Source: Agromyces protaetiae
GTDB lineage: Bacteria; Actinomycetota; Actinomycetes; Actinomycetales; Microbacteriaceae
Direction: 5' to 3'
NCBI RefSeq assembly: GCF_004135405.1
Contig: NZ_CP035491.1
Coordinates: 2,356,001 to 2,420,000, forward strand
DNA: 64,000 nucleotides
Part shown: piece by piece, positions 1,143-62,871 of the stretch
Numbering within the stretch: the first letter of the stretch is position 1
Layout of the letters: each line of letters starts with the position of its first letter
Translations under genes and position numbers: made by a program
The notes under the pieces: generated by a model
Seen by the model: only the letters and a program-made list of their open reading frames with translations
Told to the model about the DNA's origin: nothing
Databases searched by the model: none

Positions 1143-2274
1143 GCGGTTTCTGCCACTGCGACTCGAGCACGAACCCCTCGAACCCGAGCGCCTCGTTGAT
1201 CTGCAGCATGTGCCGATTCTCGTCGGCGTTCCACGTGTAGACGCGTTCGCGGGTCGGGTCGGTGCGGATGAGCAGCAGCAGGTTCGCGAGCTTGAGGCGT
1301 AGGCCGAGGCGGTGGCCTCGGTGCGCGGCGAGGACGATCGTGTCCCACTGCTCGACCGCGGTCGAAGCCGGCAGGAGCGAAAGCTGCGTGAAGCCCGCGA
1401 CCTCGCCGTCGGCCGTGACCGCCGCGGCGAAGAGGCCCGTGCGGCCGCGCTCGAGGCTGCGGTGCTCGTCGTCGCGCACGCGCGCGGCGTCCCACGGTTC
1501 GAGTTCGTACGCGATCTCGCCCGATGGCGCGTCGAGCGACATCTGCGTGTGGGCGCGCGCGAGCGAGTCGACGAGGTCGTCGGGGGCGCGGTCGGTCCAG
1601 GTGACGATGCGATAGCGCGCGGATGCCTCGGGCGAACGGCCGGATGTCTCGAGCTCGGCGAGTCGGGCCGCGAACTCGTCTGCTCGGCCCACCACCGACA
1701 CGACGCTCACGCGGTCGAGCTGCCCGAGTGTGTACCCGTGCCGTTCGGCGAACCGCACGGCGACGCTGCCGGCCCGGATGCTCGCCTCGCCCTGCGGGGC
1801 GCGCAGGCGCTCGCCGTGTCCGTCGTCGCGTGAGATCAGGTGGTCGGCCGAGAGCACGAGCGTGCGTCGGCCGGCTGCCGCCGCAGCGACTTCGGCGGCC
1901 GCGAGGAGCCGCGAGCCGATGCCGCGCCTGCGGTGGGTCGGCTCGACGCCGAGCATCGGCAGGTACGCGGTCGTGGCATCCTCGTCGAGCTCCCACTCGA
2001 GTTCGGCGAGGCCGACGAGCGCGCCGTCCTCGAAGGCGCCGAGCGCGACGTGGCGCGAGTACCGGCTCGGCGCGAGGTCGAGTGCGAGCTCGCGAGGCGA
2101 GCGCGCGAGTTCGCTCGTGCCGATCGTTTCGGCGTCGAGGCGGCGGATGAGGGCGACGTACGCGTCGAGCCCCGAGGCATCCGTCGCGCCTGGGACAACC
2201 ATCGCGCCCGGGACCTCCGGATCTTCATTGCCCGAAGGCGGCCTGATCCGCCGGATCTCGACCGGTGTCTCCAT
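1123..2274 (-). CDS. Tandem GNAT-domain acetyltransferase
   Basis: 383 residues with two GNAT folds. The N-terminal one carries an acetyl-CoA loop of the RRRGIGSRLL type (after LPMLGVEPTH). The C-terminal one has a related RGHRLGLRLK segment followed by NADENRHMLQINEALGFE, a pattern common at the end of GNAT domains. The ATG at 2274 was chosen because a GAGGGGG Shine-Dalgarno lies 7 bases upstream; the open frame continues further 5' but without a better start and into the smc coding region. Two-domain GNATs include MshD-like and antibiotic acetyltransferases; the substrate cannot be read from sequence. Divergent from smc. Confidence 0.85.
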   Translation of the reverse strand: METPVEIRRIRPPSGNEDPEVPGAMVVPGATDASGLDAYVALIRRLDAETIGTSELARSPRELALDLAPSRYSRHVALGAFEDGALVGLAELEWELDEDATTAYLPMLGVEPTHRRRGIGSRLLAAAEVAAAAAGRRTLVLSADHLISRDDGHGERLRAPQGEASIRAGSVAVRFAERHGYTLGQLDRVSVVSVVGRADEFAARLAELETSGRSPEASARYRIVTWTDRAPDDLVDSLARAHTQMSLDAPSGEIAYELEPWDAARVRDDEHRSLERGRTGLFAAAVTADGEVAGFTQLSLLPASTAVEQWDTIVLAAHRGHRLGLRLKLANLLLLIRTDPTRERVYTWNADENRHMLQINEALGFEGFVLESQWQKPLTPPES

Positions 2275-2440
2275 CGCGCGACCCCCTCGTCTGCCCCGTG
2301 CCGAGCATTTCAGGCTAACCGCGCGCGAACGCCGCGGGAACCCCGGGTGGCCGGAACGCGGCGAGGGCGACACGCCGTGGGGCAGCCGCTCGGGTACGCT
2401 CCTACGAGGCATCCGCACCATTCGAGCCGCACGGGGGGCC

Positions 2441-5400
2441 ATGTACCTGAAGAGCCTGACGCTGAAGGGATTCAAGTCCTTCGCGCAGCCGACGACGTTC
2501 GCGTTCGAGCCGGGCGTCACCTGCATCGTCGGTCCGAACGGTTCGGGTAAGTCCAACGTCGTCGACGCGCTCGCGTGGGTCATGGGGGAGCAGGGGGCGA
2601 AGAGCCTCCGCGGCGGCAAGATGGAGGACGTCATCTTCGCGGGCACCTCGACCCGCGGGCCGCTCGGCCGCGCCGAGGTGAGTCTCACGATCGACAACAC
2701 CGACGGCGCGCTGCCGATCGAGTACACCGAGGTGACGATCTCGCGCACGCTCTTCCGCAACGGGGCGAGCGAGTACGCCATCAACGGCGATCAGTGCCGT
2801 CTGCTCGACGTGCAAGAGCTCTTGAGCGACTCGGGCCTCGGGCGCGAGATGCACGTCATCGTCGGCCAGGGTCAGCTCGACGCCGTCTTGCGGGCGACGC
2901 CCGAGGAGCGCCGCGGCTTCATCGAAGAGGCCGCGGGCATCTTGAAGCACCGCCGCCGCAAAGAGAAGACGATCCGCAAGCTCGACGCGATGCAGACGAA
3001 CCTCACGCGGCTCTCCGACCTCGCGGGCGAGATCCGCCGCCAGCTGAAGCCGCTCGGCCGGCAGGCGGAGGTCGCGCGCGAGGCGGCGACGATCCAGGCC
3101 GTCGTGCGCGACGCCAAGGCTCGGCTCCTCGCCGACGAGGTCGTCGGGCTCACGCGCGCGCTCGAAGAGCACGGCAAGAGCGAGCACGAACGGCACGCAG
3201 AGCGCCTCGTCCTGCAAGACGAGCTCGAGCAGGCGCAAGCCAAGGTCGCACGGCTCGAGCAGGCGACGCTCGGCGACGGCGTCGACGACGCCCGCCAGAC
3301 CGCGCACGCCCTCGAGGCGGCCCAAGAGAAGCTGCGAGGGCTCGACCAGCTCGCCCGCCAGCGCATCGCGCTCCTCGGCGCCGACTCGGGCGATCAGGAG
3401 ACGCCGCGCACGGTCACGCGTCAGGGCATCGAGCAGGCGACGGCCGAACTCGCGGCACTCCGCGGCGCGATCGACGAGGCGCGCGTGCAGCTCGAGGCAT
3501 CCCTCGCGACGACCGCCGAAGCGCGCGTCGCGCTCGACCGCGTCGACCTCGAGATCGCAGCGCAGTCGGCGCGCGTGAGCGAGTACGACCTGCGGCTCTC
3601 GAAGCTCGCGGGGCAGGCGGATGCCGCGGGGTCGAAGCTCGCCGCAGTGCGCGGCGAGGTCCTCCGACAGCGGAACGCGCTCGAGGCATCCGCCGAACGT
3701 CGCGCCGCGACCGCCGCCGAACTCGCGCGCTGGGAGGCCGAGGCCGAAGCCTCGTCGGGCGACGACACCGACCTCGACGAGGCGTACGAGCTCGCGCAGG
3801 CGCGCGTCTTCGAGGCCGAGGCCGAGATCGAACGCATCCGCGAGGGCCTGCACGAGCGCGAGCGCGAGCGCGACTCGCTCGGCGCCCGCATCGGCGCGCT
3901 GTCGCTCGCCCTCGATCAGCGCGACGGCTCCGCGGCCGTCGCCGGCTCCGGCCTCTCGGGTGTGCGGGGCCTCCTCGCCGAGCACGTGCAGGTCGAGCCC
4001 GGATACGAGGCCGCGATCGCGGCGGCCCTCGGGTCGGTCGCCGACGCCGTGCTCGTCGACGACCCTGACGCGGCCTTCGCCGCCCTCGACCACGCCGTGC
4101 GCGGCGATCTCGGCCGCGTCGCCCTCGCGATCGCCGACCCGCGCACCGCCCCGGCCGCGCCGTTCGCCGTCGACGGGCTCGTTCCCGCCGCTCAGGTCGT
4201 GCACGCACCCGCAGGCGTCCTCGCGCTCCTCGCCGAAGTGCTCGTCGCCGACGACCTCGCGGCAGCCCGGGCCGCGGCTCCCGCCGTCGCTGTCCTCGAC
4301 CGGCCCGCGACCGTCATCACGCGCGACGGCTCGGTCATCGGCCGCTACGTCGTGCGCGGCGGAACGGGCCGCACGCAGAGCCGCATCGAACTCGTCGCCG
4401 AGCGCGACCGCGCCGCCGGCCGCCGCGACGAGGTCGTCGCCCTCCTCGAATGCGACCGGTTCGACCTCGCGGAGCAGCGCGAAGCGCACGAGCACGCGAA
4501 GGAGCAGTCGAAGCTCGCGCTCGCAGCACTCCGCGAAGAAGACGCCCAGCTCGCCCAGCGCACCGAGGGGTTGAATCGCGCCCGAGTGCAGGCCGAGGCC
4601 GCCGAATCCGAGGCCGAGCGCCTCGCCGCAGCGCTCGCGAACGCGGAAGAACGCGTCGCCGAGGCGTCGCTGGCCGCGGAGCAGGTGAAGGCCGACCTGC
4701 AGGCCGCGCGTGACGAGCCGCGTCCCGTGCTCGACGCGACCGCCCGCGACGGAGCGCTCGCGGCCCTCGAAGCCGCCCGCGAGGCAGAGGTCGAGCAGAA
4801 GTTCCACGTCGAGACCGCGAAAGAGCGCGTGCGCGCCGAAGAGGGTCGCATCGCCTCGATGGAGCGCCGGTTCCAGGCCGAGCAGCAGGCCGCCGCCGAC
4901 GCCGCCCGCCGAGCCGTCGTGCGCCGCGCTCAGCTCGAAGCCGCGACCCGCGTCGCCGACGCGCTGCCCGCGGCGCTCGCCTCGGTCGACCGCTCGGTCG
5001 CCGAAGCCCGCGTCGCGCTCGGCCGCGCCGAAGCGGAGCGGGCGACCCGCAACGAAGAACTCGTGCGGTACCGGCGCGAAGAGGCGACGATCCGCGAACG
5101 TCTGCATGCGGTCACCGAAGACGTCCACGGCCTCGAGCTGCGCATCTACGAGAAGAAGCTCCACCTCGGCCAGCTCCTCGAGCGTGCCGAGAGCGAGTTG
5201 GGCCTCGACGAGCGCGTGCTCGTCGCCGAGTACGGTCCGGATGTCCCGGTGCCGGTCGAGGTCGCAACCGGCGATGCCGGCGAGCCGGATGCCGATGCCG
5301 ACGCCGACCGCGCTCCCGGTGAGTCCGAGCACGACGCAGCCGACGAAGGGCGTGCGGCCGCGGCATCCGTGCCCTTCGATCGCGACGCCCAGCAGCGCCG

Positions 5401-6090: not shown

Positions 6091-6966
6091 ATGGCTGAAC
6101 GCGCTTCGTGGTCCCTCGGGTCGGCCCTCCGCGGCATCTTCTCGGCGAAGACGATCGACGACGACACGTGGGACGACCTCGAGGCCGCGCTCATCACGGC
6201 AGACTTCGGGCCCGCCGTGACCGAAGAGATCGTGGAGCAGATCCGCGCGCAGGTCGAGCGGTACAAGACGACCGACCCGAAGGACGTGCAGCGGATGCTC
6301 CGCGAGATCGTCGAGGAGCGGCTCGCGAAGTACGACCCCACGCTGAAGCTCACCGAGCGGCCCGCCGTCGTGCTCGTCGTCGGCGTCAACGGCGTCGGCA
6401 AGACGACGACGATCGGCAAGTTCGCGCGGTTCCTCCGGACGTACGACCGGTCGGTCGTGGTCGGCGCAGCCGACACCTTCCGCGCCGCCGCGGTCGACCA
6501 GCTCGCGACGTGGGCCGAGCGTGCCGGCGCGAGCATCGTGCGGCCCGAGCGCGAAGGCCAAGACCCGGCCTCGGTCGCGTTCCAGACCGTCGAGAAGGCC
6601 AAGCACGACGGCACCGAGATCGTCATCATCGACACCGCCGGGCGCCTCCACACCAAGGGCGGGCTCATGGACGAGCTCGGCAAGATCAAGCGCGTCGTCG
6701 AGAAGCAGGCCCCCATCAGCGAGGTCCTCCTCGTGCTCGACGCGACGACCGGCCAGAATGGCCTCGCGCAGGCCGAGGCGTTCATCGAGCACGGGGGAGT
6801 GACGGGTCTCGTGCTCACGAAGCTCGACGGCAGCGCAAAGGGCGGGTTCGTCCTCGCGGTGCAAGAGAAGACGGGCCTGCCGATCAAGCTCATCGGCCAG
6901 GGCGAGGGCATCAACGACCTCACGGGCTTCACGCCGCACGTCTTCGCGCAGAAGCTCGTCGGCTGA
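6091..6966 (+). CDS. ftsY: Signal recognition particle receptor FtsY
   Basis: 291-residue SRP GTPase that docks ribosome-nascent-chain complexes at the membrane. The N-terminal four-helix domain is followed by G1 GVNGVGKTT (98-106), an ADTFRAAA loop, DTAGR near 180 and TKLDG near 243. The acidic A domain of E. coli FtsY is missing and the N-terminus is short. The ATG at 6091 is supported by the -10 hexamer six bases upstream. Its stop codon overlaps a copy of the repeated word GAGACATCC (6965-6973). Confidence 0.97.
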   Translation: MAERASWSLGSALRGIFSAKTIDDDTWDDLEAALITADFGPAVTEEIVEQIRAQVERYKTTDPKDVQRMLREIVEERLAKYDPTLKLTERPAVVLVVGVNGVGKTTTIGKFARFLRTYDRSVVVGAADTFRAAAVDQLATWAERAGASIVRPEREGQDPASVAFQTVEKAKHDGTEIVIIDTAGRLHTKGGLMDELGKIKRVVEKQAPISEVLLVLDATTGQNGLAQAEAFIEHGGVTGLVLTKLDGSAKGGFVLAVQEKTGLPIKLIGQGEGINDLTGFTPHVFAQKLVG

Positions 6967-7007
6967 GACATCCGTCTGACGACCGAACGACACCTGGGAG
7001 ACACAGC

Positions 7008-7496: not shown

Positions 7497-7568
7497 CGCG
7501 CGCCGAAGGTGCGCGTCTGGCGAACGCGCAGCCCGAGACATCCGCCCTCACCTAGAATCGAAGGCACC

Positions 7569-9163: not shown

Positions 9164-9778
9164 TCACCCGAGCCGGTCGTCGATCTCCCGCAGGCGGTCG
9201 ATCTCGACGCCCTGAGAGGCTGCGACGGTGCGTACCCAGCGCGTGATCGCGGGGTCTCCGGATGCCTCGAGCCGCGTCTCGCACATGTCGACGGCGCCTT
9301 CGTGGTGACGGATCATCGTCTCGACGAAGAGCCGGTCGAAGGCGCTTCCCGAGAGCGATTCGGCGCGTTCGAGGGTCGATGAGCTGATCTCGCCGGGCAT
9401 GCTCGCGCCGTCGTGCTCGTCGCCCTCGCGCCCGTCGCCCTCGTGTCCCGTGTCTTCGACGCCGCGTGCTGCGAGCCACGCACGAAGCGCCGTCGCCTCT
9501 GCGGCCTGCGCCGAAGCGATGCGCCCGGCCGACGCGATGACCTCGGGGTCGGCGGCGCGGCCGTCGGCGAGGGCGGCGAGGGCGACGGCCTGGTCGTGGT
9601 GCGCGGCCATCGCCGACGCCCACGCGGCGTCGGCGGCGCTCGTCGCCTCATCGACGGCTCCAGGCGGGGCGGATGACCCGGGGCCCGACCCGTCGAAGGT
9701 GCACGCGGCGAGCGAGAGGGCTGCGAGGCATCCGGCGGCTGCGACGAGTGCCCGGACACGCTGTCGCGTCCTGGTCAC
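9164..9778 (-). CDS. DUF305 family lipoprotein
   Basis: 204 residues. A lipoprotein signal (hydrophobic h-region, then LSLAAC lipobox with Cys near 26) anchors it outside the membrane. The rest is the DUF305 helical-bundle repeat with paired histidine motifs AAHHDQAV and IRHHEGAVDMCE. DUF305 belongs to the ferritin-like superfamily; metal binding is often proposed, not seen here directly. The GTG start overlaps the stop of the LVIVD gene upstream by 4 bases (GTGA), so the two are translationally coupled and probably work together at the cell surface. Confidence 0.9.
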   Translation of the reverse strand: MTRTRQRVRALVAAAGCLAALSLAACTFDGSGPGSSAPPGAVDEATSAADAAWASAMAAHHDQAVALAALADGRAADPEVIASAGRIASAQAAEATALRAWLAARGVEDTGHEGDGREGDEHDGASMPGEISSSTLERAESLSGSAFDRLFVETMIRHHEGAVDMCETRLEASGDPAITRWVRTVAASQGVEIDRLREIDDRLG

Positions 9779-11751
9779 GTCGACTCCGACGGCGGTTCTT
9801 CAGGCTCCTCGCGGGTCTCGGGCCCGTCCGCGGAGTCGGCGGCGGAGTCGGCTGCTGCTGCCCTCCCTCGCCGCACGGCGCGCGCCCGCAGGGCGACCGC
9901 TGCTGCCGCGAGCACGATCGCGACTCCCGCGACGACGAGGAGCGCCACGAGCCATCCGTTCACCCCGCCTTCCTCCTCGCCGGACGCAACCGGCGTCGGT
10001 TCAGGCGGCGGCGCCTCCGCCTCGAGCACGCCGAGCGCGAGCCGATCGGCCGTGCGGTCGCCGCGCGCGACGAGATCGTAGCCGCCCGCCGTGAGCGGCC
10101 CGGGCGGGGTCACCGTCGTCGCGGGCAGCGCGCCCGACGCGTCGGCGCGGGCCGTCGCGAGGACGGTGCGCGTCGGCATCCACCACACGTCCACGGTCTC
10201 GCCCGGCTCGAGCGATCCCGTTGGCAGCGACACCTCGACCGTCGGCGACGCACCCGCCGAAACCGTCGAGGGCGACAGGGCGAGCGGCGTGAGGGCGCTC
10301 CGCGCCGCGGCATCCGCCGGCACGACCGGCGCGTCGCGCCACACCCACGCATACGTCGGCTGGGACTGCGGGTTGAGCTCGCCCGGGTCGTACCTGGCGG
10401 CGTCGGCGAACATCGGGTCGGTGAGGCGCAGCACCTCGAGGCCCTCGTACATGTCGCTCGCGTAGAGGTAGCCGTCGTAGAAGTAGACCGCCCAGATGCC
10501 TGCCGTGTAGGGCATCGAGTAGCCGTACGTCGGCCGGTCGAAGAAGGTGAGCTCTGCGGGCGCCGCGGGGTCGGTGAAGTCGATGACCGACACCCCGCCC
10601 TCGAGCCACGCCTGCGCGATGACGAACCGGTCGGGCACGGGGATGAGCCCGCCCGAATGCGCCACGCACTTCTCGAGGTCGGAGTGGGTGCGCCCGATCT
10701 TGAAGTAGCTCTGGTGAACGAGCGAACCGGCCGAGTCGAACGACCACAGTGCGTCGGCGCCACGGTCGCCGCCGAACGCGGGGGAGCACGTGTTGATGAA
10801 CCCGTCGCCCAGTTCGTCTTGGAAGACGACGGCCGTCGCGTCGTTGTCGAAGATGCCCGAGTGCCAGAAGGCGACGTTCGCGTCGCGCATGCGCTGGAGC
10901 ACGACGGGATGCAGGGGATCGACGATCGACAGCAGCAGGCCGTCGCCGCGGCACGCCGCGACGGCGAGCTGCTTCGCCGGGTACGCGGTGATGTCGTGGC
11001 ATCCGGTCGTCGAGCGCGTGTCGGCGCCGCCCGGCACCCGGTCGCCCGGCCCGAACGCCGTCGCGTCGTCGAAGAGATCGAGTTCGCCCGCGATCGCCGC
11101 CTGCTCGGGAGCTGCGAGCGGGATGCGCACGATCTGCAGCGGGTTGCGACCCGTGCAGTTGAGGGATGCCCCGCGGCTGTACGCGCTCACGTACACGAGC
11201 ACGCTCCCCGGGTCGGCCGGGTCGGGCACGACCGTGTGCGTGTGCGAGCCGCAGCGGGTGCGCACCGACGCGACATACCGCGGGGCGGCGGGGTCGGCGA
11301 TGTCGAAGACCCGCAGGCCCTCCCAGTTCTGGCTCGTCTCGGGCACGCGCACGGCGTCGCACGCGTCCGACGACATCGTCTCGTCGATCGACACGATCAC
11401 GAGGTTGCCGACCGCGCTCACATCACCCTGTCCGCCGGCGCACTCGAACGCGCTCCGCAGCTCGGGGTTCGCGGGGTCGGCGATGTCCCACACCGAGAAG
11501 CCGTCGTAGTTGCCCTGGATCAGGTGGTCGCCCGAGAACGCGAGGTCCGAGTTGATGAAGTCGGGGTCGTCGCCCCGGCGGAACGGGTTGTCGCGGTGCG
11601 CGACCCATTCGAGCCCGGGCCCGATCGCGGGATCACGGCCGTCGGACGCGGTGGGCGACGCGGCGACAGGGGCGGCCGGAACCAGCAGCGCGAGCGCCGC
11701 GCCGAGCGCACCGATCGCGCCGAACGCGAACCGGGCCGCGACGCGCCGCAC
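9775..11751 (-). CDS. LVIVD-repeat secreted/membrane protein
   Basis: 658 residues: Sec signal peptide ending near AAPVAAS; repeated beta-propeller-like units marked by VWDIADPANPEL, VFDIADPAAPRY, VIDFTDPAAPAEL and LVIVS (LVIVD family); a proline-rich linker; then one C-terminal membrane helix (WLVALLVVAGVAIVLAAAAVAL) and a basic-then-acidic tail. This predicts a surface propeller anchored at its C-terminus. The GTG start lies three bases after the SpeE-like gene, so it is the middle gene of a three-gene operon (12561 to 9164). Specific role unknown. Confidence 0.88.
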   Translation of the reverse strand: MRRVAARFAFGAIGALGAALALLVPAAPVAASPTASDGRDPAIGPGLEWVAHRDNPFRRGDDPDFINSDLAFSGDHLIQGNYDGFSVWDIADPANPELRSAFECAGGQGDVSAVGNLVIVSIDETMSSDACDAVRVPETSQNWEGLRVFDIADPAAPRYVASVRTRCGSHTHTVVPDPADPGSVLVYVSAYSRGASLNCTGRNPLQIVRIPLAAPEQAAIAGELDLFDDATAFGPGDRVPGGADTRSTTGCHDITAYPAKQLAVAACRGDGLLLSIVDPLHPVVLQRMRDANVAFWHSGIFDNDATAVVFQDELGDGFINTCSPAFGGDRGADALWSFDSAGSLVHQSYFKIGRTHSDLEKCVAHSGGLIPVPDRFVIAQAWLEGGVSVIDFTDPAAPAELTFFDRPTYGYSMPYTAGIWAVYFYDGYLYASDMYEGLEVLRLTDPMFADAARYDPGELNPQSQPTYAWVWRDAPVVPADAAARSALTPLALSPSTVSAGASPTVEVSLPTGSLEPGETVDVWWMPTRTVLATARADASGALPATTVTPPGPLTAGGYDLVARGDRTADRLALGVLEAEAPPPEPTPVASGEEEGGVNGWLVALLVVAGVAIVLAAAAVALRARAVRRGRAAAADSAADSADGPETREEPEEPPSEST

Positions 11752-12574: not shown

Positions 12575-12698
12575 GGTGCGGAAGCCGTCGGCTGCCAGCG
12601 GCGCGGTCTCGACGCGCCGGGGCATCCTGGGGTTATCCTTTCCGCGAAGCGACGCACGTGGGCGAAGGCCCGACCGCCACTCACATTGGGGGAACCTG

Positions 12699-13723
12699 GT
12701 GGACACGCCGCAACTCGAGTCGATCGGAACCGACTGGGACGATCGGGTGCTCCACGCGCACTCCTCGCCGCATTTCATGCAGAGTCGCACGTGGGCCGAG
12801 ATCCGCTCGGGGGCCCGTGGAGCGTGGCCTCCGTCGATCTGTCGACCGGTCGACCGCGGCCGCACCCGGCCCTGACGTACGAGCGCGAGGTCGCGGGAGT
12901 CGGCCGTCTTCGCCACCTTCCTCGCGTGAGCGGCATCGGAGCGGCGGATGTCCCGGGGCTCACCGCTTCGCTTCGCGAGCGCGGCGGTGCGTTCGCCACG
13001 AAGCTGGAGCTGTACCAGCCGAGGGACGCCGCGATCGAGGCGGAGTTCGCGGCGGAGGGATGGCTTCCGGCGAAGGCGTCGCAGTACCGCTTCGCCGTCA
13101 TCGTCGATCTCTCGCGGGGCTCGGAGGCGGCGTTCGCCGACATGAAGAAGCGCGCGCGTGCGGAGATCCGGGTAGGGGAGCGCAACGGTGTCGCGATCGA
13201 GCGGGGCGAGGTCGACGGGCCGGATGCCTCGGAGATGATCGAGCTCGTGAGGGCGACCGAGGAGCGATCGGGCGCGTTCTTCCGAGACGACGAGTACCTG
13301 CGGCGGGTGTGGTCGCGGTTCGCGGAGTCGGGGAACGGCCGACTGTACCTCGCCCGTCACGACGGGCAGGTCGTCGCGGGCGCATTCGTCGTGCGGTTCG
13401 GGCGCAACGCCTGGTACAAGGACGGCGGTTCGACGCGCGAGTTCCCGCACCTCATGGCCTCGCGGCTGCTGCAGTGGCGGATCATGCAGGAGCTCGCCGA
13501 GGAGGGCGTCGAGGCGTACGACCTCGGCCACGTGCCGCCGCCCGGCTACGATCACCCCGCCGGTCGAGGCATCCTGATCTTCAAGAGCGCGTTCGCGTCC
13601 GACATCGTCGAGTACCTGCCCGCCTATCTGCTGCCGCACGAGCCGGGCGCCGACGAATGGCGCCGCGGCGAGGGTGCGTTCCTCGCCGGCTACCGCGCGG
13701 AGACCGGGGACTACTGGTACTGA
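12699..13723 (+). pseudogene. FemX/FemAB-type peptidyl transferase, frameshifted
   Basis: Reads as a lipid II interpeptide-bridge aminoacyltransferase (FemABX). A GTG at 12699 behind a GGGGGAA Shine-Dalgarno gives VDTPQLESIG...HFMQSRTWAEIRS. The frame then breaks at the G5 run 12809-12813, and the other frame continues GGPWSVASVDLSTG to the stop at 13723. The downstream part has family landmarks: MKKRARAEIRVGERNGV, ATEERSGAFFRD, RNAWYKDGG and LLQWRIMQEL. Adding one G restores a single 341-residue protein of normal length. Either a sequencing error or a genuine inactivating indel; two Fem enzymes normally build the actinobacterial cross-bridge. Confidence 0.85.
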
Positions 13724-13829: not shown

Positions 13830-15263
13830 ATGACCACCGGTTCTCCCGACTACCGCGACTCGGGCCTCGAGTTCGGCGACGACTTCCTCTTCGGCTCGGC
13901 CACTGCGTCGTACCAGATCGAAGGCGCCTACGACGAAGACGGCCGCGGCCCGAGCATCTGGGACACCTTCAGCCACACGCCCGGCAAGGTCTGGAACGGC
14001 GACACGGGCGACGTCGCCGACGACCACTACCACCGCTGGGAGGCGGACCTCGACCTCATGGTCGAACTCGGCCTCGAGGCGTACCGGTTCTCGATCGCGT
14101 GGCCGCGGATCCAGCCGACGGGCCGCGGTCCCGCGAACGAGGTCGGCCTCGCGTTCTACGAGCGACTCGTCGACGGGCTCATCGCCAGAGGCATCCGCCC
14201 CATCGCGACCCTCTACCACTGGGACCTCCCGCAGGCCCTTGAAGACGAGGGCGGCTGGACCAACCGCGCGACCGCCGAGGCCTTCGCCGACTACGCGCGC
14301 CTCGTCGGCGAGCGGCTCGGCGACAAGATCTCGGTGTGGACGACGCTCAACGAGCCGTGGTGCTCCGCCTACCTCGGATACGGCTCGGGCGCACACGCGC
14401 CGGGCCTCATGGACGGCGCCAAGGCGCTCGCCGCCGTCCACCACCTGAACCTCGCCCACGGGCTCGCCGTCGCGGCGCTCCGGGAAGTCGTGCCGGGCGA
14501 CCCGCAGTTCTCGATCACGCTCAACCTCCACGTCATCCGCCCGTCGGGCGAGACGGGCCCCGAGGCCGCGCGTCGCATCGACGGGCTCGCCAACCGCGTG
14601 TTCCTCGGACCTCTGCTCGACGGCGAGTACCCCGCCGACGTCATCGCCGACACGGCCGGCATCACCGATTGGTCGTTCGTGAAGCCCGGCGACACCGACC
14701 TCATCAAGCAGCCGCTGCATCTGCTGGGCGTCAATTACTACTCGACCGTCACGGTGCGCATGTGGGACGGCGAGGGCGCGAAGGTCAACGCCGACGGTCA
14801 CAAGGACATGGGCGGCACGGCGTGGCCCGGCTCCGACGGCGTCGAGTTCCTCCAGCAGCCCGGCCCGTACACCGAGATGGGCTGGAACATCGACCCCTCG
14901 GGCCTCGAAGACCTCCTCGTCGCACTTCACGAGTCCTATCCCGGACTTCCGCTCATGATCACCGAGAACGGCGCGGCGTTCGACGACGTCGTCGTCGAAG
15001 GCGAGACGGGCCCCGCCGTCCACGACGTGGAGCGCACCGACTACCTCCGCCGGCACTTCACGGCCGCGCACCGCGCGATCGCGCGCGGCGTCGACCTGCG
15101 CGGGTACCAGGTGTGGTCGTTCCTCGACAACTTCGAGTGGGGCTACGGGTACTCCAAGCGCTTCGGCATCGTGCGCGTCGACTACGACACCCAGGAGCGG
15201 CTGCCGAAGGATTCGGCGCTCTGGTACGCGGAGCTCATCCGCACGCGCCGCATCCCCGCGTAA
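13830..15263 (+). CDS. Glycoside hydrolase family 1 beta-glucosidase
   Basis: 477-residue GH1 enzyme, retaining beta-glucosidase or beta-galactosidase type, hydrolysing short beta-linked glucosides in the cytoplasm (no signal peptide). Landmarks: [15 protein letters not shown] at the N-terminus, acid/base Glu in [15 protein letters not shown], nucleophile Glu in [12 protein letters not shown], and the substrate-binding C-terminus [20 protein letters not shown]. The ATG at 13830 gives the usual length and follows an operator-like palindrome, suggesting sugar-dependent control. It converges with the GCS2-type ligase 41 bases downstream. Confidence 0.94.
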
Positions 15264-15304
15264 GCGGTCGGCCTCGAGGCATCCGGCTTCGCGAGACCCC
15301 GGGT

Positions 15305-16462
15305 CTATGAGACGGATGCCTCGGCCGACGGCGTGCCGTCGCGAAGCTCGTGTGCGAGGTGCGCGACCACCGCGCGGAGGTCGCCGCCGGCCGCGTGCGC
15401 GACGCCGAGCTGCCGCTGGTAGCTCGCGCCCATCTCGAGCATGGTGCGGATGCCCTGCAGCTCGGGGCCGCAGCCGAGTCGTTCGGCGATCGGCGCGAGC
15501 GTCACGAGGAGGTCGAGCAGGTCGTCGCCGACGAGCCGCTCGGACCCCGCGACGTCCGTGATGATCTCGGCGTCCATGCCGTAGCGCGCCGCGCGCCACT
15601 TGTTCTCGCGCACGTACCAGGGCTGCAGCACCGACAGCGTCTCGCCGTGGTCGAGCCGCTCGCTCATCCACTCCACGAGGCACTGGATGAGCGCCGCGAT
15701 CGCGGCGATCTCGGCGGCCGTCGACACGCCGTCGCACACGCGCACCTCGATCGTGCCCCACTTGGGCGAGGGCCGGATGTCCCACCTGACCTCGCTGTAG
15801 TCCTCGATGACGCCCGTACGCACGAGGTCGTCGACGTACCGCTCGTAGGCGGCCCAATCGGCGAGCGGATAGGGGAGGCCCGCGGTCGGCAGCTGCTGGA
15901 ACATGAGAGCGCGGTTCGACGCGTAGCCCGTCTCGACGCCCGCCCAGAACGGACTCGACGCGCTGAGGGCCTGCAGGTGCGGGATGTACGCGAGCATGCC
16001 GTCGAGGATCGGCAGCGCCTTCGCACGGTCTTCGATGCCGACGTGGACGTGGATGCCCCAGATCATCATGTTGCGGCCCCACCACCGCGTGCGGTCGATG
16101 AGCTTGTGGTACCTCGGCTTGTCGGTGAGCTGCTGGTCGTACCACTGGCTGAACGGATGCGAGCCGCTGCAGATGAGGTCGTAGTCGCCGATGTCGTCGA
16201 GGACCGTCCGGACTTCCTCGAGCTGCCCGACGAGGTCGGCGACCGCCCCGTCGACGCGCTCGTGCACGCCGCTCACGAGCTCGACCGTGTTCGTCAGGAG
16301 CTCGTGCGTGATGTGCTCGTGCGGCGAGCCGTCGGGGCCGCGGAGGCCGTCGAGCACCCGGTCGGCGACCGACGCGAGTTCGCCCGTGACCCGATCGACG
16401 ATCGCGATCTCCCACTCGATCCCGACGGTCGAGCGCGGCGAGTCGGCGAAGCCGATCTGCAT
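15305..16462 (-). CDS. GCS2-type carboxylate-amine ligase (YbdK/glutamate-cysteine ligase-like)
   Basis: 385 residues. GCS2 family signatures: TVGIEWEIAIVD at the N-terminus (ATP/Mg binding Glu), THELLTNTVEL, SGSHPFSQW, WGIHVHVGIED and WDIRPSPKWGTIEVRVCD. Members ligate glutamate to cysteine or act on other amines; actinobacteria make mycothiol rather than glutathione, so the true substrate here is uncertain. The ATG at 16462 (MQIGFADS) is preceded by GGGGAAG and matches the family N-terminus; an upstream ATG at 16501 would add 13 residues. No partner gene on this strand. Confidence 0.88.
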   Translation of the reverse strand: MQIGFADSPRSTVGIEWEIAIVDRVTGELASVADRVLDGLRGPDGSPHEHITHELLTNTVELVSGVHERVDGAVADLVGQLEEVRTVLDDIGDYDLICSGSHPFSQWYDQQLTDKPRYHKLIDRTRWWGRNMMIWGIHVHVGIEDRAKALPILDGMLAYIPHLQALSASSPFWAGVETGYASNRALMFQQLPTAGLPYPLADWAAYERYVDDLVRTGVIEDYSEVRWDIRPSPKWGTIEVRVCDGVSTAAEIAAIAALIQCLVEWMSERLDHGETLSVLQPWYVRENKWRAARYGMDAEIITDVAGSERLVGDDLLDLLVTLAPIAERLGCGPELQGIRTMLEMGASYQRQLGVAHAAGGDLRAVVAHLAHELRDGTPSAEASVS

Positions 16463-19588: not shown

Positions 19589-19601
19589 CGGGGCGGATGC
19601 C

Positions 19602-20964: not shown

Positions 20965-21027
20965 CGGGTGTGCGGGCGGTCCTCACGACCGCAGACGGTG
21001 GCCCCGGGGCATCCGCGCTCGCGTGCT

Positions 21028-31296: not shown

Positions 31297-32208
<912 letters not shown>

Positions 32209-41071: not shown

Positions 41072-43277
<2,206 letters not shown>

Positions 43278-48531: not shown

Positions 48532-50609
<2,078 letters not shown>

Positions 50610-50627: not shown

Positions 50628-51848
50628 ATGGCGTACCTCGACCACGCCGCCACGACCCCGATGCGCCCCGAGGCGATCGATGCGTTCACCGCGGCCCTCG
50701 CGATCACGGGCAACCCCGCGTCGATCCACAGCGCCGGCCAGGCCGCGAAACGGCTGCTCGAGGAGTCGCGCGAACAGGTCGCCGCGACGCTCGGCGCCGA
50801 CGCCATCGAGGTCGTCTTCACGGGCAGCGGCACCGAGTCGGTGAACCTCGCGATCAAGGGGCTGTACTGGCAGCGGCAGGCGGATGTCCCGCGCCCGCGC
50901 ATCCTCTATCCGGGCGGCGAGCACCACGCGACGATCGACACCGTCGAGTGGCTCGCGCAGCGCGAGGGCGCCGAACTCGTCGAGCTTCCGGTCGACGCGG
51001 TCGGCAGGGTGCGCCTCGACGCCCTCGCGGCCGAATTGGCCGAGCACGCGGCATCCGTCGCCCTCGTCACGATGCTGTGGGCCTCGAACGAAGTGGGCAC
51101 GATCCAGCCCGTCCGCGAGGTCGCGGCGCTCGCGGCGCGCGCGGGCGTGCCGCTCCACGTCGACGCGATCGCCGCCTACGGGCAGGTGCCGATCGATGTA
51201 CGTGCGATCCGGCGCGAGACCGACGCCCCGGCCGGTGCCGGCCTCGTCGCGCTGAGCGTGTCGGCGCACAAGCTCGGCGGGCCCGCGGGCATCGGCGCGC
51301 TCGTCCTCGATCGCACGGCGAAGATCGAGCCGCTGCTGCACGGCGGCGGCCAGCAGCGACGCATCCGTTCGGGCACGCAAGACGTGGCGGCCGCGGCGGC
51401 ATTCGCGGCTGCCGCGACGTCGGTCTCGGCACGCCTCGACGACGATGCGCTTCGGATGTCTCGCTTGCGCGACCGCATCATCGCAGGCGTCGCCGAGCTC
51501 GTGCCCGACGCGCGGCTCTCGGGAGACCCGTCGCCCGATGGGCGTCTGCCCGCGAACGTGCACTTCTCGTTCCCCGGCTGCGAGGGCGACTCGCTGCTCT
51601 TCCTCTTGGATGCCTCGGGCGTCAACGTCTCCACGGGGTCGGCGTGCCAGGCGGGCGTTCCCGAGCCCTCGCACGTGCTCATGGCCATGGGCCGGAGCGA
51701 AGCCGACGCGCGCGGCGCCCTCCGCCTCACCCTGGGGCATGTCTCGACCGATGCCGACGTCGACGCGTTCCTCGCAGCGCTGCCCGAGGCGTACGCGCGC
51801 GCGTCGCGTGCCGGCCTCGCCGCCCGATCGACCTCCTTCGACCGCTGA
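50628..51848 (+). CDS. Cysteine desulfurase (IscS/NifS type)
   Basis: 406 residues. PLP enzyme that supplies sulfane sulfur. YLDHAATTPMRPEAI, GTESVNLAIKGL, GEHHATIDT, catalytic Lys in SVSAHKLGGPAGIGAL and active-site Cys in STGSACQAGVPEPS (class I long loop). mnmA follows 66 bases later, so the likely main acceptor is the tRNA 2-thiouridylase. Nothing in the gene indicates an Fe-S scaffold partner nearby. Confidence 0.93.
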   Translation: MAYLDHAATTPMRPEAIDAFTAALAITGNPASIHSAGQAAKRLLEESREQVAATLGADAIEVVFTGSGTESVNLAIKGLYWQRQADVPRPRILYPGGEHHATIDTVEWLAQREGAELVELPVDAVGRVRLDALAAELAEHAASVALVTMLWASNEVGTIQPVREVAALAARAGVPLHVDAIAAYGQVPIDVRAIRRETDAPAGAGLVALSVSAHKLGGPAGIGALVLDRTAKIEPLLHGGGQQRRIRSGTQDVAAAAAFAAAATSVSARLDDDALRMSRLRDRIIAGVAELVPDARLSGDPSPDGRLPANVHFSFPGCEGDSLLFLLDASGVNVSTGSACQAGVPEPSHVLMAMGRSEADARGALRLTLGHVSTDADVDAFLAALPEAYARASRAGLAARSTSFDR

Positions 51849-51884
51849 GGCATACTCGGGGCATCCTGGGGCTTCGGGGCATCC
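51847..51884 (+). repeat. Cluster of three CATCC-word copies
   Basis: GAGGCAT at 51847-51853, GGGGCATCC at 51858-51866 and GGGGCATCC at 51876-51884 fill most of the gap between the desulfurase and mnmA; the last two are 18 bases apart. Confidence 0.7.
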
Positions 51885-51914: not shown

Positions 51915-53057
51915 ATGCGAGTGCTTGCGGCGATGTCAGGCGGCGTCGACAGCGCCGTCGCGGCGGCGCGCGCCGTCGAGGCGGGCCATGACGTCGTGGG
52001 GGTCCACCTGGCCCTCAGCCGGATGCCCGGCACCCTCCGGACCGGCAGCCGCGGCTGCTGCACGATCGAGGACTCGATGGACGCGCAGCGCGCCGCGAAC
52101 GTGCTCGGCATCCCGTACTACGTGTGGGACTTCTCCGAGCGCTTCAAGGCCGACGTCGTCGACGACTTCATCGCCGAGTACGCGGCCGGCCGCACGCCGA
52201 ACCCCTGCATGCGCTGCAACGAGCGCGTCAAGTTCGCCGCCCTCCTCGAGAAGGCGCTCGCGCTGGGCTTCGACGCCGTCGCCACCGGTCACTACGCGAA
52301 GGTGCTTCCGGATGCCTCGGGGCGGCTCGAACTCCATCGTGCATCGGCCGAGGCGAAGGACCAGAGCTACGTGCTCGGCGTCCTGACCGCAGAGCAGCTC
52401 GCGCACGCCTACTTCCCGCTCGGCGACACGCCCTCGAAAGAACTCGTGCGCCAGGAGGCCGAGCGTCGCGGGCTCTCGGTCGCGCGCAAGCCCGACTCGT
52501 ACGACATCTGCTTCATCCCCGACGGCGACACCAAGGGCTGGCTCGCCGACAAGGTCGGCGAGATGCCCGGCGACATCGTCGACCGGTCGGGCGCCGTCGT
52601 CGGCAGCCACCAGGGTGCGCACGCCTACACGGTCGGCCAGCGCCGCGGCCTGCACCTCGGCGTCCCCGCCGCCGACGGCAAGCCCAGGTTCGTGCTCGAG
52701 GTGCGGCCCAAGCAGAACACCGTCGTCGTCGGCCCCAAAGAGGCGCTCGCCGTCGGGCTCATCGCCGGCTCGCGGTTCTCGTGGGCCGGGGCCGACCCCG
52801 AGGCATCCGGTCTCATCGCCTCGCCCGGCGATGAGTTCGCGTGCGAGGTGCAGATTCGCGCTCACGCCGACCCCGTGCCCGCCGTCGCGCACATCGGTGC
52901 GCACGACGAGACGGGCGAGCCCGAGTTGGTCGTCGTGCCTGACGCGCCCCTTGACGGCGTCGCCCCCGGACAGACCGCCGTCGTCTACGTCGGCACGCGC
53001 GTGCTGGGCCAGTGCACGATCGACCGCACGGTGTCAGCGGTTCCCGTCGGGGTCTGA
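51915..53057 (+). CDS. mnmA: tRNA-specific 2-thiouridylase MnmA
   Basis: 380 residues. Thiolates U34 of Lys, Glu and Gln tRNAs. PP-loop [11 protein letters not shown]; catalytic cysteines in [12 protein letters not shown] and [15 protein letters not shown] and GQRRGLHLG. The sulfur donor is the product of the gene upstream. Confidence 0.97.
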
Positions 53058-53108: not shown

Positions 53109-55481
<2,373 letters not shown>

Positions 55482-55521: not shown

Positions 55522-57312
55522 ATGGCGGAGGAGGAGTCGGGTGAAGAGGGCGTCGAACCGGTGGATGGCGTGCAGCGCGCGAAGGTTCCGCCGAGCCGCC
55601 GCGATTTCCTTCGGTATGGGGGCGTCGCCGCAGCGGGAGCAGTCGCCGGTGGAGCCGCGGGCGCGGCCATCGGCCTGAGCGTCGGCCCGCCCGCGGCCTC
55701 GCCGGGCGAGCCGACGGGGCTCCCGACGCTCGGGCCGACGCCGCCCGCCGACGGCTCGCCCGGCTTCGCGCACCTCGTCGTGCTCATGGGCGAGAACCGC
55801 TCGTTCGACAACCTGCTCGGCTGGCTCTACACGCCCGACGACCCGCCGCCGTCGGGCGGCGCCTTCGAAGGTCTCGCGTACGCGCCCCACCGCAACTCCC
55901 TGCCCGACGGCCGCTCCTTCGAGGCGCATGTCTACACGGGTGCGACCGACCGGGTCATGCAGAGCCCCGACCCCGACCCGGGCGAAGAGTTCCCGCACGT
56001 CAACACGCAACTGTTCGGCACGATCGAGCCGCCGGCCAACGAAGGCGTCGGAGTGGGCGAGATGGCGTCCCCCTACAACGCGCCGGGCCCAGGGGCATCC
56101 GCCTCGATGTCGGGGTTCGCGCGCGACTACGCCGCCCATCTCGCGCAGACGCACAAACGGGAGCCGACCGACGACGAGATCGCGGTCATCATGGGCGGGT
56201 TCTCGCCGCAGATGCTGCCCGTGCTGTCGTCGCTCGCGCGCGGCTTCGCCGTCTACGACCACTGGTTCTGCGCCGTGCCGTCGCAGACGTTCTGCAACCG
56301 CTCGTTCTTCCACGCGTCGATGTCGCACGGGTTCGTCACGAACCGCTACAACGGCGACTTCAAGAAGTGGCTCGACGTGAAGCCCGCATCCACGATCTTC
56401 GACCGGCTCGAGGCGGCAGGGCTCGACTGGCGCATCTACTTCGACGACCTGCAACTCATTTCGCTCACAGGGCTCATCCACGCGCCCGCACTCGAGAAGT
56501 ACTGGAAGACCCCGCATTTCGCGCCCATGTCGCAGTTCTTCCAGGATGTCGCGGCAGGCGCCCTGCCGGCGTACACGTTCATCGAGCCGCGCATGATCTA
56601 CGACCACAACGACTTCCACCCGCCCTTCGGGCGGCTCGAGGGGAGCGACATCGAGGGGCAGATGGTCTACGACGACGCCATCTCCGACGTGCGGGCGGGC
56701 GAGGCGCTCGTGTCGAGCGTGTACGAGGCGATTCGCGCGAGCGCGACCGAGGGCGGCTCGAATGCGTTCAACACGATGCTGCTCATCACGTTCGACGAGC
56801 ACGGCGGTACCTACGACCACGTGCCGCCGCCTGCGGCGACCCCGCCGCATCCCGACGCGAAGCCCGGGGAGATGGGCTTCTCGTTCGACCGGCTCGGCTG
56901 TCGGGTGCCCGCGATCGCGATCTCGGCATACACGGGGGCGGGCACGGTGATCCAAGACGAGATGCACCATGCCGCGGTCGTGTCGACGCTCACGAACCTG
57001 CACGCGCTCGAGCCGCTCACGGCGCGCGACGACGGCGCGCGAGACCTCGGCGGGGCGGTCAACCTGACCGCTCCGAGACATCCGTCGACCTGGCCGTCGC
57101 CGACGCCGCAGTACGTGCCGCCGAACCCCGAGGCCGGACGCCCTCACCCGGCCGACGCGCACGGCGACCGGCCGCTGAGCCCGCCCGCGAAGGGACTCCT
57201 CGGCATCCTGATCGCGAAGTACGGTGACGGCGGCGATCCTGAACCCGAGACGTACGCCGACGCGTACGAGGCGTTGCAGAAGTACGGGCAGGGCTTGTTC
57301 GGGGTCGGTTGA
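55522..57312 (+). CDS. Tat-exported phosphoesterase (phospholipase C/acid phosphatase family)
   Basis: 596 residues. Twin-arginine signal with RR at 26-27 (SRRDFLRYGG), followed by a Gly-Ala-rich hydrophobic region. Alkaline-phosphatase-superfamily domain: HLVVLMGENRSFDNLLGWLY, FCAVPSQTFCNRSFFHASMS, FIEPRMIYDHNDFHPPFG and LITFDEHGGTYDHVPPP. Close to non-haemolytic phospholipase C and AcpA. Probably scavenges phosphate outside the cell. SD AGAGGAGG; not obviously linked to its neighbours. Confidence 0.9.
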   Translation: MAEEESGEEGVEPVDGVQRAKVPPSRRDFLRYGGVAAAGAVAGGAAGAAIGLSVGPPAASPGEPTGLPTLGPTPPADGSPGFAHLVVLMGENRSFDNLLGWLYTPDDPPPSGGAFEGLAYAPHRNSLPDGRSFEAHVYTGATDRVMQSPDPDPGEEFPHVNTQLFGTIEPPANEGVGVGEMASPYNAPGPGASASMSGFARDYAAHLAQTHKREPTDDEIAVIMGGFSPQMLPVLSSLARGFAVYDHWFCAVPSQTFCNRSFFHASMSHGFVTNRYNGDFKKWLDVKPASTIFDRLEAAGLDWRIYFDDLQLISLTGLIHAPALEKYWKTPHFAPMSQFFQDVAAGALPAYTFIEPRMIYDHNDFHPPFGRLEGSDIEGQMVYDDAISDVRAGEALVSSVYEAIRASATEGGSNAFNTMLLITFDEHGGTYDHVPPPAATPPHPDAKPGEMGFSFDRLGCRVPAIAISAYTGAGTVIQDEMHHAAVVSTLTNLHALEPLTARDDGARDLGGAVNLTAPRHPSTWPSPTPQYVPPNPEAGRPHPADAHGDRPLSPPAKGLLGILIAKYGDGGDPEPETYADAYEALQKYGQGLFGVG

Positions 57313-60862: not shown

Positions 60863-61519
60863 ATGGGATTTCTCGACCGCATCTTCGGCGCGCCCGACCC
60901 CGAGCCCGCGCGACCGCCCACCCCTTCGCAGCGGCGCCTGACCGACGACGAGCTCGCCGTCGAACGCTACCGGTACCTGCTGCGCACGGCGCCGCCCGAG
61001 TCGATCGAGCAGGTGCACGCCGAGGCGTTCGCGCGCCTCACGCCTCCGCAGCGGGCGCTCGTGTTCCAGGCGCTCTCCGATCAGGCGCCTGCAGGGGAGC
61101 GGCTCGTGTCCGACGAGCCGAGCGCGCTCGCTCGCGCCGCGACCCGCCAGGAGATGCGGCAGCCGGGCAGCGTCGAGCGCGCGTTCGCGTCGGCGGATGT
61201 CTCGGCCGGGCGCCCGTCGGCGGGCGGCGTCGGGTACGGCGGGCCGTCGATCGGCGGCATGTTCGGCTCGTCGCTCCTCGGAACGATCGCGGGCGTCGTC
61301 GTGGGTACGGCGATCGCGCAGGCGTTCCTGCCCGATCATGCGTTCTTCGAGCAGGGCGCCGAGGATTCCGGGGAGGGCGTCGGGGACGGCGGGGCGGATG
61401 CCTCGGCGGCGCCCGAGTCGTACGGCTACGATGACTCCGACCACCGCTGGGGCGATGGCGGCAACCCTGACGACGGATTCTTCGGCGGGGGATTCGACGG
61501 CGGCGGGTTCGACATCTGA
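60863..61519 (+). CDS. Conserved hypothetical protein, Gly-rich C-terminus
   Basis: 218 residues. A charged helical N-terminal half (LTDDELAVERYRYLLRTAPPESIEQVHAEAFARLTP), one possible membrane or amphipathic segment (SSLLGTIAGVVVGTAIAQAFL), then an acidic and Gly-rich tail ending DDGFFGGGFDGGGFDI. I do not recognise the family; similar actinobacterial proteins have been called cation-transporting ATPase without a visible ATPase motif. GAGGA Shine-Dalgarno; TACATT is a candidate -10. Confidence 0.65.
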   Translation: MGFLDRIFGAPDPEPARPPTPSQRRLTDDELAVERYRYLLRTAPPESIEQVHAEAFARLTPPQRALVFQALSDQAPAGERLVSDEPSALARAATRQEMRQPGSVERAFASADVSAGRPSAGGVGYGGPSIGGMFGSSLLGTIAGVVVGTAIAQAFLPDHAFFEQGAEDSGEGVGDGGADASAAPESYGYDDSDHRWGDGGNPDDGFFGGGFDGGGFDI

Positions 61520-61575: not shown

Positions 61576-62835
61576 ATGAGCAAGCAGGACGGCTCGTCGC
61601 GCCAAGTGACGACGGGGCCGGTCGACGACTCTGCGACGCCGATCCTGCACGTCGACATGGATGCGTTCTTCGTCTCGGTCGAGCTGCTCTCCCGGCCAGA
61701 GCTCCGGGGCAAGCCCGTGCTCGTGGGCGGCGCCGCGGGCCGCGGCGTCGTGTCGGCGGCGAGCTACGAGGCGCGCAAGTACGGCGTGAACTCGGCGATG
61801 CCGATGTCGGTCGCCCTCCAGCGCTGCCCCAACGCGATCGTGCTGCCCGGCGACTACCGCAAGTACCGCGAGTACTCCGACCGCGTGATGGAGCTCTTCG
61901 GCGAGATGACGCCGCTCGTCGAGCCGTTGTCGATCGACGAAGCGTTCCTCGACGTCGGCGGTGCGCGGCGCCTGCACGGCAGCCCGGCGCAGATCGGCTG
62001 GACCATCCGCGAGCGGGTGCGCATCGAGACGGGCCTCACGTGCTCGATCGGCGTCGCCGCGACGAAGTACGTCGCGAAGGTCGCATCGAGCCGTGCGAAG
62101 CCCGACGGCCTGCTCGTCGTGCCCGCGGCCGACACGATCGCCTTCCTGCATCCGCTGCCCGTCTCGGCACTGTGGGGTGTCGGCAAGGTCACCGAAGAGC
62201 GGCTCGCCCGTCTCGGCCTCCGCACAGTGGCCGACGTCGCGGCGATGCCGCACGAGGCGCTCGTGCGCGCAGTGGGGCGCGCGCTCGCCGACCGACTGAC
62301 GCACCTCGCGAACGGCGACGACCCGCGTGAGGTGTCGGTGCACCGTGTCGAGAAGAGCATCGGCCACGAGACGACGTTCTCGCACGACCTCACCGACCCC
62401 GAGGCGATCAAGCGGGCGCTCCTCGACCTCTCGAACGACGTCGCCGTGCGGGTTCGGCGCGCCGGCGTCGTGGCCCGCACGGTCTCGCTCAAGCTCCGGT
62501 ACGGCGACTTCCGCACGGTCACGCGCTCGCGGACGCTCGCCGAACCGACCGACGTCGCCAAGCGCATCTACGAAGAGGCCGCGGCCGCACTCGAGGGGCT
62601 CGTCGGCGACGGCGCCCGCATCCGACTGATCGGCGTGCGCGCGGAGCAGCTCCGCGAGACGGGCGGCGCGGCGCCGCTGTGGGATCCCGACGAGGAGTGG
62701 CGCGAGGCCGAGCGCACGATCGACGAGGTCGCGGCGAAGTTCGGTCGGCACACGGTGCGGCCGGCGTCGCTCCTCGGGCGCGGACGACGCGCGGTCGACC
62801 TCAGCCGCCGCGACAGCGACCCCGACGAGGCGTAG
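61576..62835 (+). CDS. dinB: DNA polymerase IV (Y family)
   Basis: 419 residues. Translesion polymerase. Catalytic acids in HVDMDAFFVSVE and SIDEAFLDVGG; VLVGGAAGRGVVSAASYEAR; HhH region SALWGVGKVTEERL; little-finger domain thereafter. I do not see a canonical beta-clamp-binding peptide at the C-terminus. With no SOS box visible, constitutive expression is possible. Confidence 0.95.
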   Translation: MSKQDGSSRQVTTGPVDDSATPILHVDMDAFFVSVELLSRPELRGKPVLVGGAAGRGVVSAASYEARKYGVNSAMPMSVALQRCPNAIVLPGDYRKYREYSDRVMELFGEMTPLVEPLSIDEAFLDVGGARRLHGSPAQIGWTIRERVRIETGLTCSIGVAATKYVAKVASSRAKPDGLLVVPAADTIAFLHPLPVSALWGVGKVTEERLARLGLRTVADVAAMPHEALVRAVGRALADRLTHLANGDDPREVSVHRVEKSIGHETTFSHDLTDPEAIKRALLDLSNDVAVRVRRAGVVARTVSLKLRYGDFRTVTRSRTLAEPTDVAKRIYEEAAAALEGLVGDGARIRLIGVRAEQLRETGGAAPLWDPDEEWREAERTIDEVAAKFGRHTVRPASLLGRGRRAVDLSRRDSDPDEA

Positions 62836-62871
62836 CGTTTCGCGAGGGTGGCCGCGCGAGACATCCGTCGG

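Follow-up and report, generated by a model that had tools for sequence, protein, structure and literature searches.

An over-represented nine-base word with lineage dialects in Agromyces protaetiae and other Microbacteriaceae, a probable DNA uptake sequence

A nine-base word in the window and the genome

The window analysed here is a 64 kb stretch of the Agromyces protaetiae chromosome (G000:C1:2356001-2420000), the genome being a single contig of 3.68 Mb. The closest matches to its Ffh are in Agromyces (91 % to A. mediolanus over the best segment). It contains a comM-like gene and dprA, and scattered through it are copies of the word GRGRCATCC, which, by analogy with known systems, is probably a DNA uptake sequence (DUS) that exists in several dialects. 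A search of both strands identified 28 copies of GRGRCATCC and 23 of its complement, GGATGYCYC, giving 51 copies from position 337 to 62866; an order-3 Markov expectation scaled to 64 kb is approximately 3.3. This supports the initial annotation, which claimed about four dozen copies in both orientations against about four expected, and all 24 of the example positions that it listed carry the word. Its span, however, began at 2174, which is not the first copy in the window. The copies are listed below by pattern match, GRGRCATCC as plus and GGATGYCYC as minus, followed by the two genes; G079 and G142 are congeners.

337-345, minus, word copy
464-472, plus, word copy
1621-1629, minus, word copy
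1642-1650, minus, word copy
2174-2182, plus, word copy
2406-2414, plus, word copy
3494-3502, plus, word copy
3683-3691, plus, word copy
5239-5247, minus, word copy
6965-6973, plus, word copy; shares bases with the stop codon of called gene 6091-6966
7535-7543, plus, word copy
9260-9268, minus, word copy
9725-9733, plus, word copy
11164-11172, minus, word copy
12619-12627, plus, word copy
12946-12954, minus, word copy
13222-13230, minus, word copy
13566-13574, plus, word copy
14188-14196, plus, word copy; dialect differs among species at this site
15276-15284, plus, word copy
15314-15322, minus, word copy
15775-15783, minus, word copy; GGGACATCC retained in 6 of 7 aligned relatives
16051-16059, minus, word copy
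18214-18222, plus, word copy; dialect differs among species at this site
19595-19603, minus, word copy
21006-21014, plus, word copy
22649-22657, plus, word copy
23440-23448, minus, word copy
24083-24091, minus, word copy within the comM-like gene
28662-28670, plus, word copy
29210-29218, plus, word copy
31384-31392, minus, word copy forming the left arm of an inverted pair, which lies downstream of called gene 30466-31296 and may be a terminator hairpin
31396-31404, plus, word copy forming the right arm of the pair with 31384
37420-37428, minus, word copy
42538-42546, plus, word copy
44863-44871, plus, word copy
48509-48517, plus, word copy; G079 and G142 have CCGCGGCATCCG at this site
50427-50435, minus, word copy
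50882-50890, minus, word copy
51454-51462, minus, word copy
51608-51616, minus, word copy
51858-51866, plus, word copy, first of a direct pair with 18-bp spacing
51876-51884, plus, word copy, second of the direct pair with 18-bp spacing
52310-52318, minus, word copy
52800-52808, plus, word copy
55193-55201, plus, word copy
56092-56100, plus, word copy
57075-57083, plus, word copy; G142 has GCGGCATCC at this site (dialect switch)
61195-61203, minus, word copy; G142 has GCGGCATCC at this site (dialect switch)
61396-61404, minus, word copy
62858-62866, plus, word copy
23915-25477, plus, comM-like gene (Mg-chelatase family)
25474-26706, plus, dprA (DNA_processg_A and winged helix domains)

The enrichment is not a property of the window alone. 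Across the whole genome there are 3,456 copies (938 per Mb), divided equally between the strands (1,739 and 1,717). The window and 40 further 20 kb stretches were combined into a detailed sample of 864 kb (23.5 % of the genome), in which genes were called with a simple caller of our own. This sample contains 836 copies against 44.4 expected from an order-3 Markov model, an excess of approximately 19-fold. The expectation is 36.0 at order 2, 78.6 at order 4, 210.7 at order 5 and 402.1 at order 6; the two highest orders understate the excess, because parts of the word enter the training of these models, and even they do not explain away the observed number, a possibility raised in the initial annotation. 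Under the Markov models of order 3 and order 5 alike, the two listed, GAGGCATCC is the leading over-represented 9-mer. A reversed-pattern control did not serve as the null, since CTA, which is rare, is part of it.

Synonymous shuffling of codons within genes reduced the 558 coding copies (285 and 273 on the two strands) to 54 (30 and 24), in agreement with the earlier statement that codon bias is not the cause. The related statement, that the word forces rare codons, holds for GCA (6.7 % of alanine codons) and GAT (12 % of aspartate codons), but not for TCC, which makes up 16 % of serine codons. These results support selection, or drive, acting on the word itself.

Consensus, orientation and placement

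Eleven positions make up the consensus: C (.84), G, A (.78) or G (.22), G, G (.65) or A (.35), C, A, T, C, C and G (.78). At all other positions in the 864 kb sample there is less than 0.2 bit per base, and an extended flank like that of the uptake signal sequence (USS) of the Pasteurellaceae was rejected. Single changes within CATCC are mostly at or below expectation, apart from a few classes of one or two copies at 3-10 fold, while bases 3, 5 and 11 of the consensus tolerate change.

Copies are balanced in orientation with respect to genes, 284 out of 557 coding copies being on the sense strand, and their density is 0.77 per kb in called genes and 2.0 per kb in non-coding sequence. Taken with the results of codon shuffling, this indicates that the pressure acts on double-stranded DNA rather than on codon usage, RNA or protein. 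For 93 of the 224 non-coding copies flanked by two genes (42 %), the nearest gene end is a stop codon within 60 bp, compared with 19 % of non-coding positions, which bears out the earlier remark that copies often lie next to stop codons. Within 50 bp of each other and wholly in non-coding sequence there are 24 inverted pairs, 16 in the order minus-plus and eight plus-minus; no minus-plus pair lies in a divergent gap.

A search for a dnaA signature in the first 20 kb of the contig found no match, and chromosome axes were therefore scanned every 50 kb. The strand polarity relative to the replichores that the initial annotation proposed to look for is not seen on any axis tried, the origin not being located: the largest deviation is 31 out of 836 copies, which 24.6 % of 500 random draws reach, and polarity towards a replication axis was rejected. 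Over the 23.5 % of the genome that was sampled, copies are evenly spread, with 12-30 copies per 20 kb stretch and a variance/mean of 1.13 per 5 kb. No restriction to, or exclusion from, a chromosome domain was found in the sampled stretches, between which a small domain could escape. The only low stretch has one copy and covers an island of three adjoining 5 kb windows without the word, out of 172 (G000:C1:2949001-2964000, L033), with a GC content of 62-66 % and a type I restriction R gene.

Direct pairs of words in the sample favour spacings of 18 bp (27 pairs) and 36 bp (11 pairs), all other spacings up to 120 bp being represented by three pairs or fewer each. The spacers of the 18-bp pairs are alike in some pairs only, and in the relatives, where two pairs at 18 bp were found, the preference was not seen. 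In addition, the non-coding sequence has a dispersed element, about 75 bp long and built of copies of GTCCGACAAA in inverted pairs spaced by 19 bp, with 20 exact 10-mers at six places in the 864 kb (G000:C1 near 16683, 284671, 658654, 1115109, 1297686, and 3596809). The window also includes a thiamine pyrophosphate riboswitch (63311-63421).

Dialects and turnover of sites

Among 199 genomes of the Microbacteriaceae, the 3,456 copies in A. protaetiae compare with 849-2,392 in three congeners and more than 500, up to 1,319, in a few other genera; twelve named Agromyces have 233-2,473. Of 297 genomes searched in the order, the 274 from other families have at most about 100 copies per Mb, compared with 938 here. 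A low count of GRGRCATCC may conceal another dialect. De novo word counts used stretches from each genome (60-220 kb) rather than pooled orthologous Ffh loci, since pooling these inflates shared words. In eight out of ten named relatives (60-80 kb each), the top 8-mer contains GCATCC with differing flanks; the other two, Leifsonia aquatica and Clavibacter, have no word of GCATCC type in these counts. Overlapping top words were merged by the author into composites: GAGGCATCCG for A. soli, A. agglutinans, and G079; GCGGCATCCG for A. sp. NDB4Y10 and G142; GGCATCCGC for Humibacter; CGGCATCCGC for M. arabinogalactanolyticum; GCGGCATCCGTC for Leifsonia flava; CGGGCATCC for Subtercola; and, more weakly, CCGCATCC for Herbiconiux.

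After codon shuffling an excess of 3.3-6.8 fold stays in all ten word-positive genomes (the eight named relatives, G079, and G142) and is absent in both negative genomes, the tested words having been chosen from the same sequence. Using the caller trained on A. protaetiae, six of the ten have a higher density in non-coding than in coding sequence. GCATCC is the top 6-mer overall in 17 of 75 named sets of loci (11-81 kb per genome); Cryobacterium, Okibacterium, and two Microbacterium were represented by short contigs only. On a tree of 76 genomes made by a quick method, 47 were labelled positive, 23 negative, and six undecided from the ratio of GCATCC at Ffh (for A. protaetiae, over the whole window), a coarse measure by which A. 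soli is undecided although it is clear with more sequence. The label changes eight times on this tree, against a mean of 19.5 for shuffled labels, with none of 500 shufflings as low, and the starred branches force at least four changes.

In six Clavibacter loci (L081, L109, L116, L174-L176) the palindromic CGGATCCG occurs 148 times against 30 expected, a five-fold excess, and its 7-mer CGGATCC, one base different from the core GCATCCG, survives codon shuffling 6.3-fold. CGGATCCG is possibly another dialect or possibly an unrelated site.

Alignment of the window to 11 relatives gave 190 site-by-relative comparisons, in which the intact word is present in 39 and GNGRCATCC is retained in 56. Local control 9-mers are identical in 16.6 % of cases, or in 22.3 % at the seven fixed positions, so that a given site is no better conserved than its surroundings; conservation of individual sites as proof of selection was looked for in these comparisons and not found. 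At sites that retain the core, base 2 has changed to C, as in the GCGGCATCC dialect, in four of six cases in G142, compared with 29 of 419 (7 %) in other sequence, and in three of five in A. sp. NDB4Y10, compared with nine of 147 (6 %). Examples of the dialect switch are at 48509, 57075, and 61195. This suggests that it is the population of words, not the individual word, that is kept by a genome, as expected of words spread by biased transformation.

A second family

Seven other families of the order, sampled at 40 kb each (f5, f10, and f16 were omitted for their short contigs), have GCATCC ratios of 0.6-1.3 and thus no enrichment. One of the seven, f18, has a different word, CGGCATAC, with 1,142-3,277 copies per genome in 13 of its 23 genomes and 7-71 in the other ten, divided by genus (example genomes are G466, G342, and G316); four genomes outside the family have 30-70. 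In 120 kb from five f18 genomes, single mismatches to this word are mostly at background, the largest excess being 4.7 fold on seven copies, and codon shuffling keeps five of 50 coding copies. GGCAT is common to the words of both families, which may reflect either descent or chance.

Competence and pilus genes

In A. protaetiae, comEA (SLBB and helix-hairpin-helix domains) adjoins comEC, read by eye. Tad-type ATPases are encoded at two loci, and there is also a type IV pilus-like cluster; the ATPases were identified by Pfam and the rest by eye. One tad locus adjoins a gene judged by eye to be topoisomerase-like, and nine of the loci fetched from relatives have this gene too. The type IV pilus-like cluster at L223 (G000:C1:1481001-1500000) includes a full-length PilB-type ATPase. 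There is no full-length match to this ATPase in the congeners G079, G142, G487, G491, and G495; the lack of a full-length match in word-positive G079, Humibacter, Subtercola, and Herbiconiux led to rejection of the type IV pilus as the common uptake machine.

Most known competent bacteria have no sequence preference, and the word-negative species may likewise be competent without one. Natural transformation has been shown in Rhodoluna and Aurantimicrobium, both members of the Microbacteriaceae, and Rhodoluna was transformed with plasmid as well as linear DNA (PMC11577799).

Interpretation as a probable uptake sequence

The Neisseriaceae DUS occurs in both orientations at about one copy per kb. 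The USS of the Pasteurellaceae has extended flanking motifs, unlike the Agromyces word, which lacks a strong flank outside its 11-base consensus. Five of the eight features listed for DUS and USS were found in Agromyces and its relatives: an extreme excess of one short word throughout the genome, its occurrence in both orientations with no polarity on the axes tried, copies inside and between genes with inverted pairs near gene ends, lineage dialects with a common core, and the presence of competence machinery. The last does not discriminate, being also present in word-negative genomes. DUS and USS are short enriched words of about 9-12 nt (PMC12616744), and the Agromyces word resembles the USS in being short and enriched and in the proposal of a pilin as receptor. 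Copies in the Neisseriaceae lie both within genes and between them, some as inverted pairs associated with terminators; the family has eight dialects with a common core, and five of its genomes have no obvious DUS (PMC3630211). An atypical DUS distribution marks mobile elements (PMC7371117). The Agromyces word is similar in its thousands of copies per genome, its dialects with a shared core and its word-free lineages, and its non-coding inverted pairs such as 31384/31396, possible terminators, recall the terminator-linked pairs in the Neisseriaceae (PMC3630211). It differs from the DUS in its unrelated sequence, its high-GC Gram-positive host, the absence of a known ComP-type receptor, and the several word-positive genomes without a full-length PilB-type ATPase match. 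Competence with comEA/comEC and tad genes is also a feature of another actinobacterium, Micrococcus luteus (PMC4322843, PMC6370729); the term 'uptake sequence' does not occur in the paper on its Flp/Tad-dependent transformation (PMC4322843).

Of the three roles offered in the initial annotation, DNA uptake fits the anatomy of the word and the comparative evidence best. The word would then be a short double-stranded tag, present about once per kb, for which a DNA receptor in the competence machinery has a preference; the cell would thereby take up and recombine free DNA from its own or a related species. Copies would accumulate because uptake and recombination favour fragments bearing the word, a form of molecular drive. 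The receptor may be a minor pilin or a pilus-associated protein, perhaps of a Flp/Tad pilus, the kind that serves M. luteus in transformation. Because competence genes occur in word-negative species too and no gene tested separates the groups, we infer the step from word to uptake from anatomy and analogy. For the same reason the presence of comM and dprA, offered earlier in favour of uptake, is a weak argument, comEC being equally present in word-negative relatives.

Several results weigh against this interpretation. No uptake or transformation data for A. protaetiae were found in the open-licence literature, and no ComP-like receptor was identified, no search aimed at receptors having been made. 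ComEC is present in all 32 genomes of one set (14 word-positive, 18 negative), in all 23 genomes of f18 (13 positive, ten negative), and in all 18 genomes chosen for a high or low GRGRCATCC count. The pilus ATPase (T2SSE) was found in 23 out of 23 genomes and, in a second set, again in 23 out of 23; TadE was found in 30 out of 34, being missing from three of 18 negative and one of 16 positive genomes. None of the three cleanly separates word-positive from word-negative genomes. In word-positive Microbacterium elymi (G532) the ComEC domain is in two adjacent pieces (C1:3470115-3470902), due either to decay or to sequencing error. A tag is perhaps unneeded in Rhodoluna, since plasmid DNA also transforms it. 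The lack of conservation per site fits drive and shows no function at any one site, and in Humibacter, Herbiconiux, Subtercola, and G142, four of the ten word-positive genomes, density is lower in non-coding than in coding sequence. We know of no feature of the DUS like the preference for 18-bp spacing. Lastly, chance alone would give 1.4 empty windows where the island has three, and the density of the word declines with GC in general (r 0.46); the island is therefore one supporting case only.

Alternative explanations

A recombination or repair signal similar to Chi, read within the cell by an exonuclease-helicase that starts recombination there, and accumulating because it protects or repairs the DNA that carries it, would be consistent with a genome-wide word present about once per kb and missing from the island. 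The Chi sites known so far have a strand polarity with respect to replication, and no such polarity is seen on any axis tried, the origin not being located. An excess of 19-fold, its loss with most single changes in the core, frequent change of dialect and absence from sister lineages would also be unusual for the site of a core repair nuclease, making this explanation improbable.

Slightly less probable again is a site for a nucleoid-associated or segregation protein that organizes the chromosome, of the kind of FtsK-orienting polar sequences (KOPS), parS, MatS, or SlmA or Noc sites. The even spread agrees with it, and pairs at 18 bp could suit a cooperative DNA-binding protein. Against this, there is no polarity on the axes tried and no origin or terminus domain in the sampled stretches, single sites turn over like their surroundings, and sister lineages live without the word. 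The chromosome-organization or segregation role suggested in the initial annotation is disfavoured accordingly.

The target of a restriction-modification system or solitary methyltransferase, also suggested there, is very unlikely. GGATG is the recognition core of FokI, and a type I restriction R gene is in the word-free island. Restriction targets are usually depleted, however, and no avoidance is seen, the word being strongly enriched at Markov orders 2-6 and 19-fold at order 3; we know of no case in which methylation alone drives enrichment of this size. The flanking dialect bases also vary between species while the core is constant. Explanations by base composition, by ordinary codon usage or by a transposed repeat element can practically be dismissed, since, although some copies are in tandem repeats of 18 bp or 36 bp, the bulk is excluded by synonymous shuffling here and in relatives, by Markov orders 2-6, and by the weak flanks outside the 11-base consensus.

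Significance

Sequence-tagged DNA uptake has been described in two Gram-negative families only (PMC12616744). No report of uptake sequences in Actinobacteria or in these genera was found among the titles listed from the open-licence literature, a report elsewhere being possible, and passages from PMC12236230 and PMC2843746 are silent on actinobacterial uptake words. A broader proposal is somewhat favoured: that Actinobacteria have sequence-specific uptake, with an origin independent of that in Proteobacteria; that it is old in the Microbacteriaceae, with the core GCATCC, about half a dozen dialects and repeated gain and loss; that a second family of the order uses CGGCATAC; and that the receptor belongs to a Flp/Tad or ComEA system.

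If true, this would be a third, Gram-positive system with dialects, and would mean that selective uptake evolves repeatedly. Whether tags spread by drive or by benefit could then be tested across many word-bearing and word-free species, and the correct word on donor DNA would be a handle for transforming Agromyces and its relatives. The GGCAT in the words of both families would point to one ancestral receptor, and changes of dialect would raise barriers to gene flow among these bacteria.

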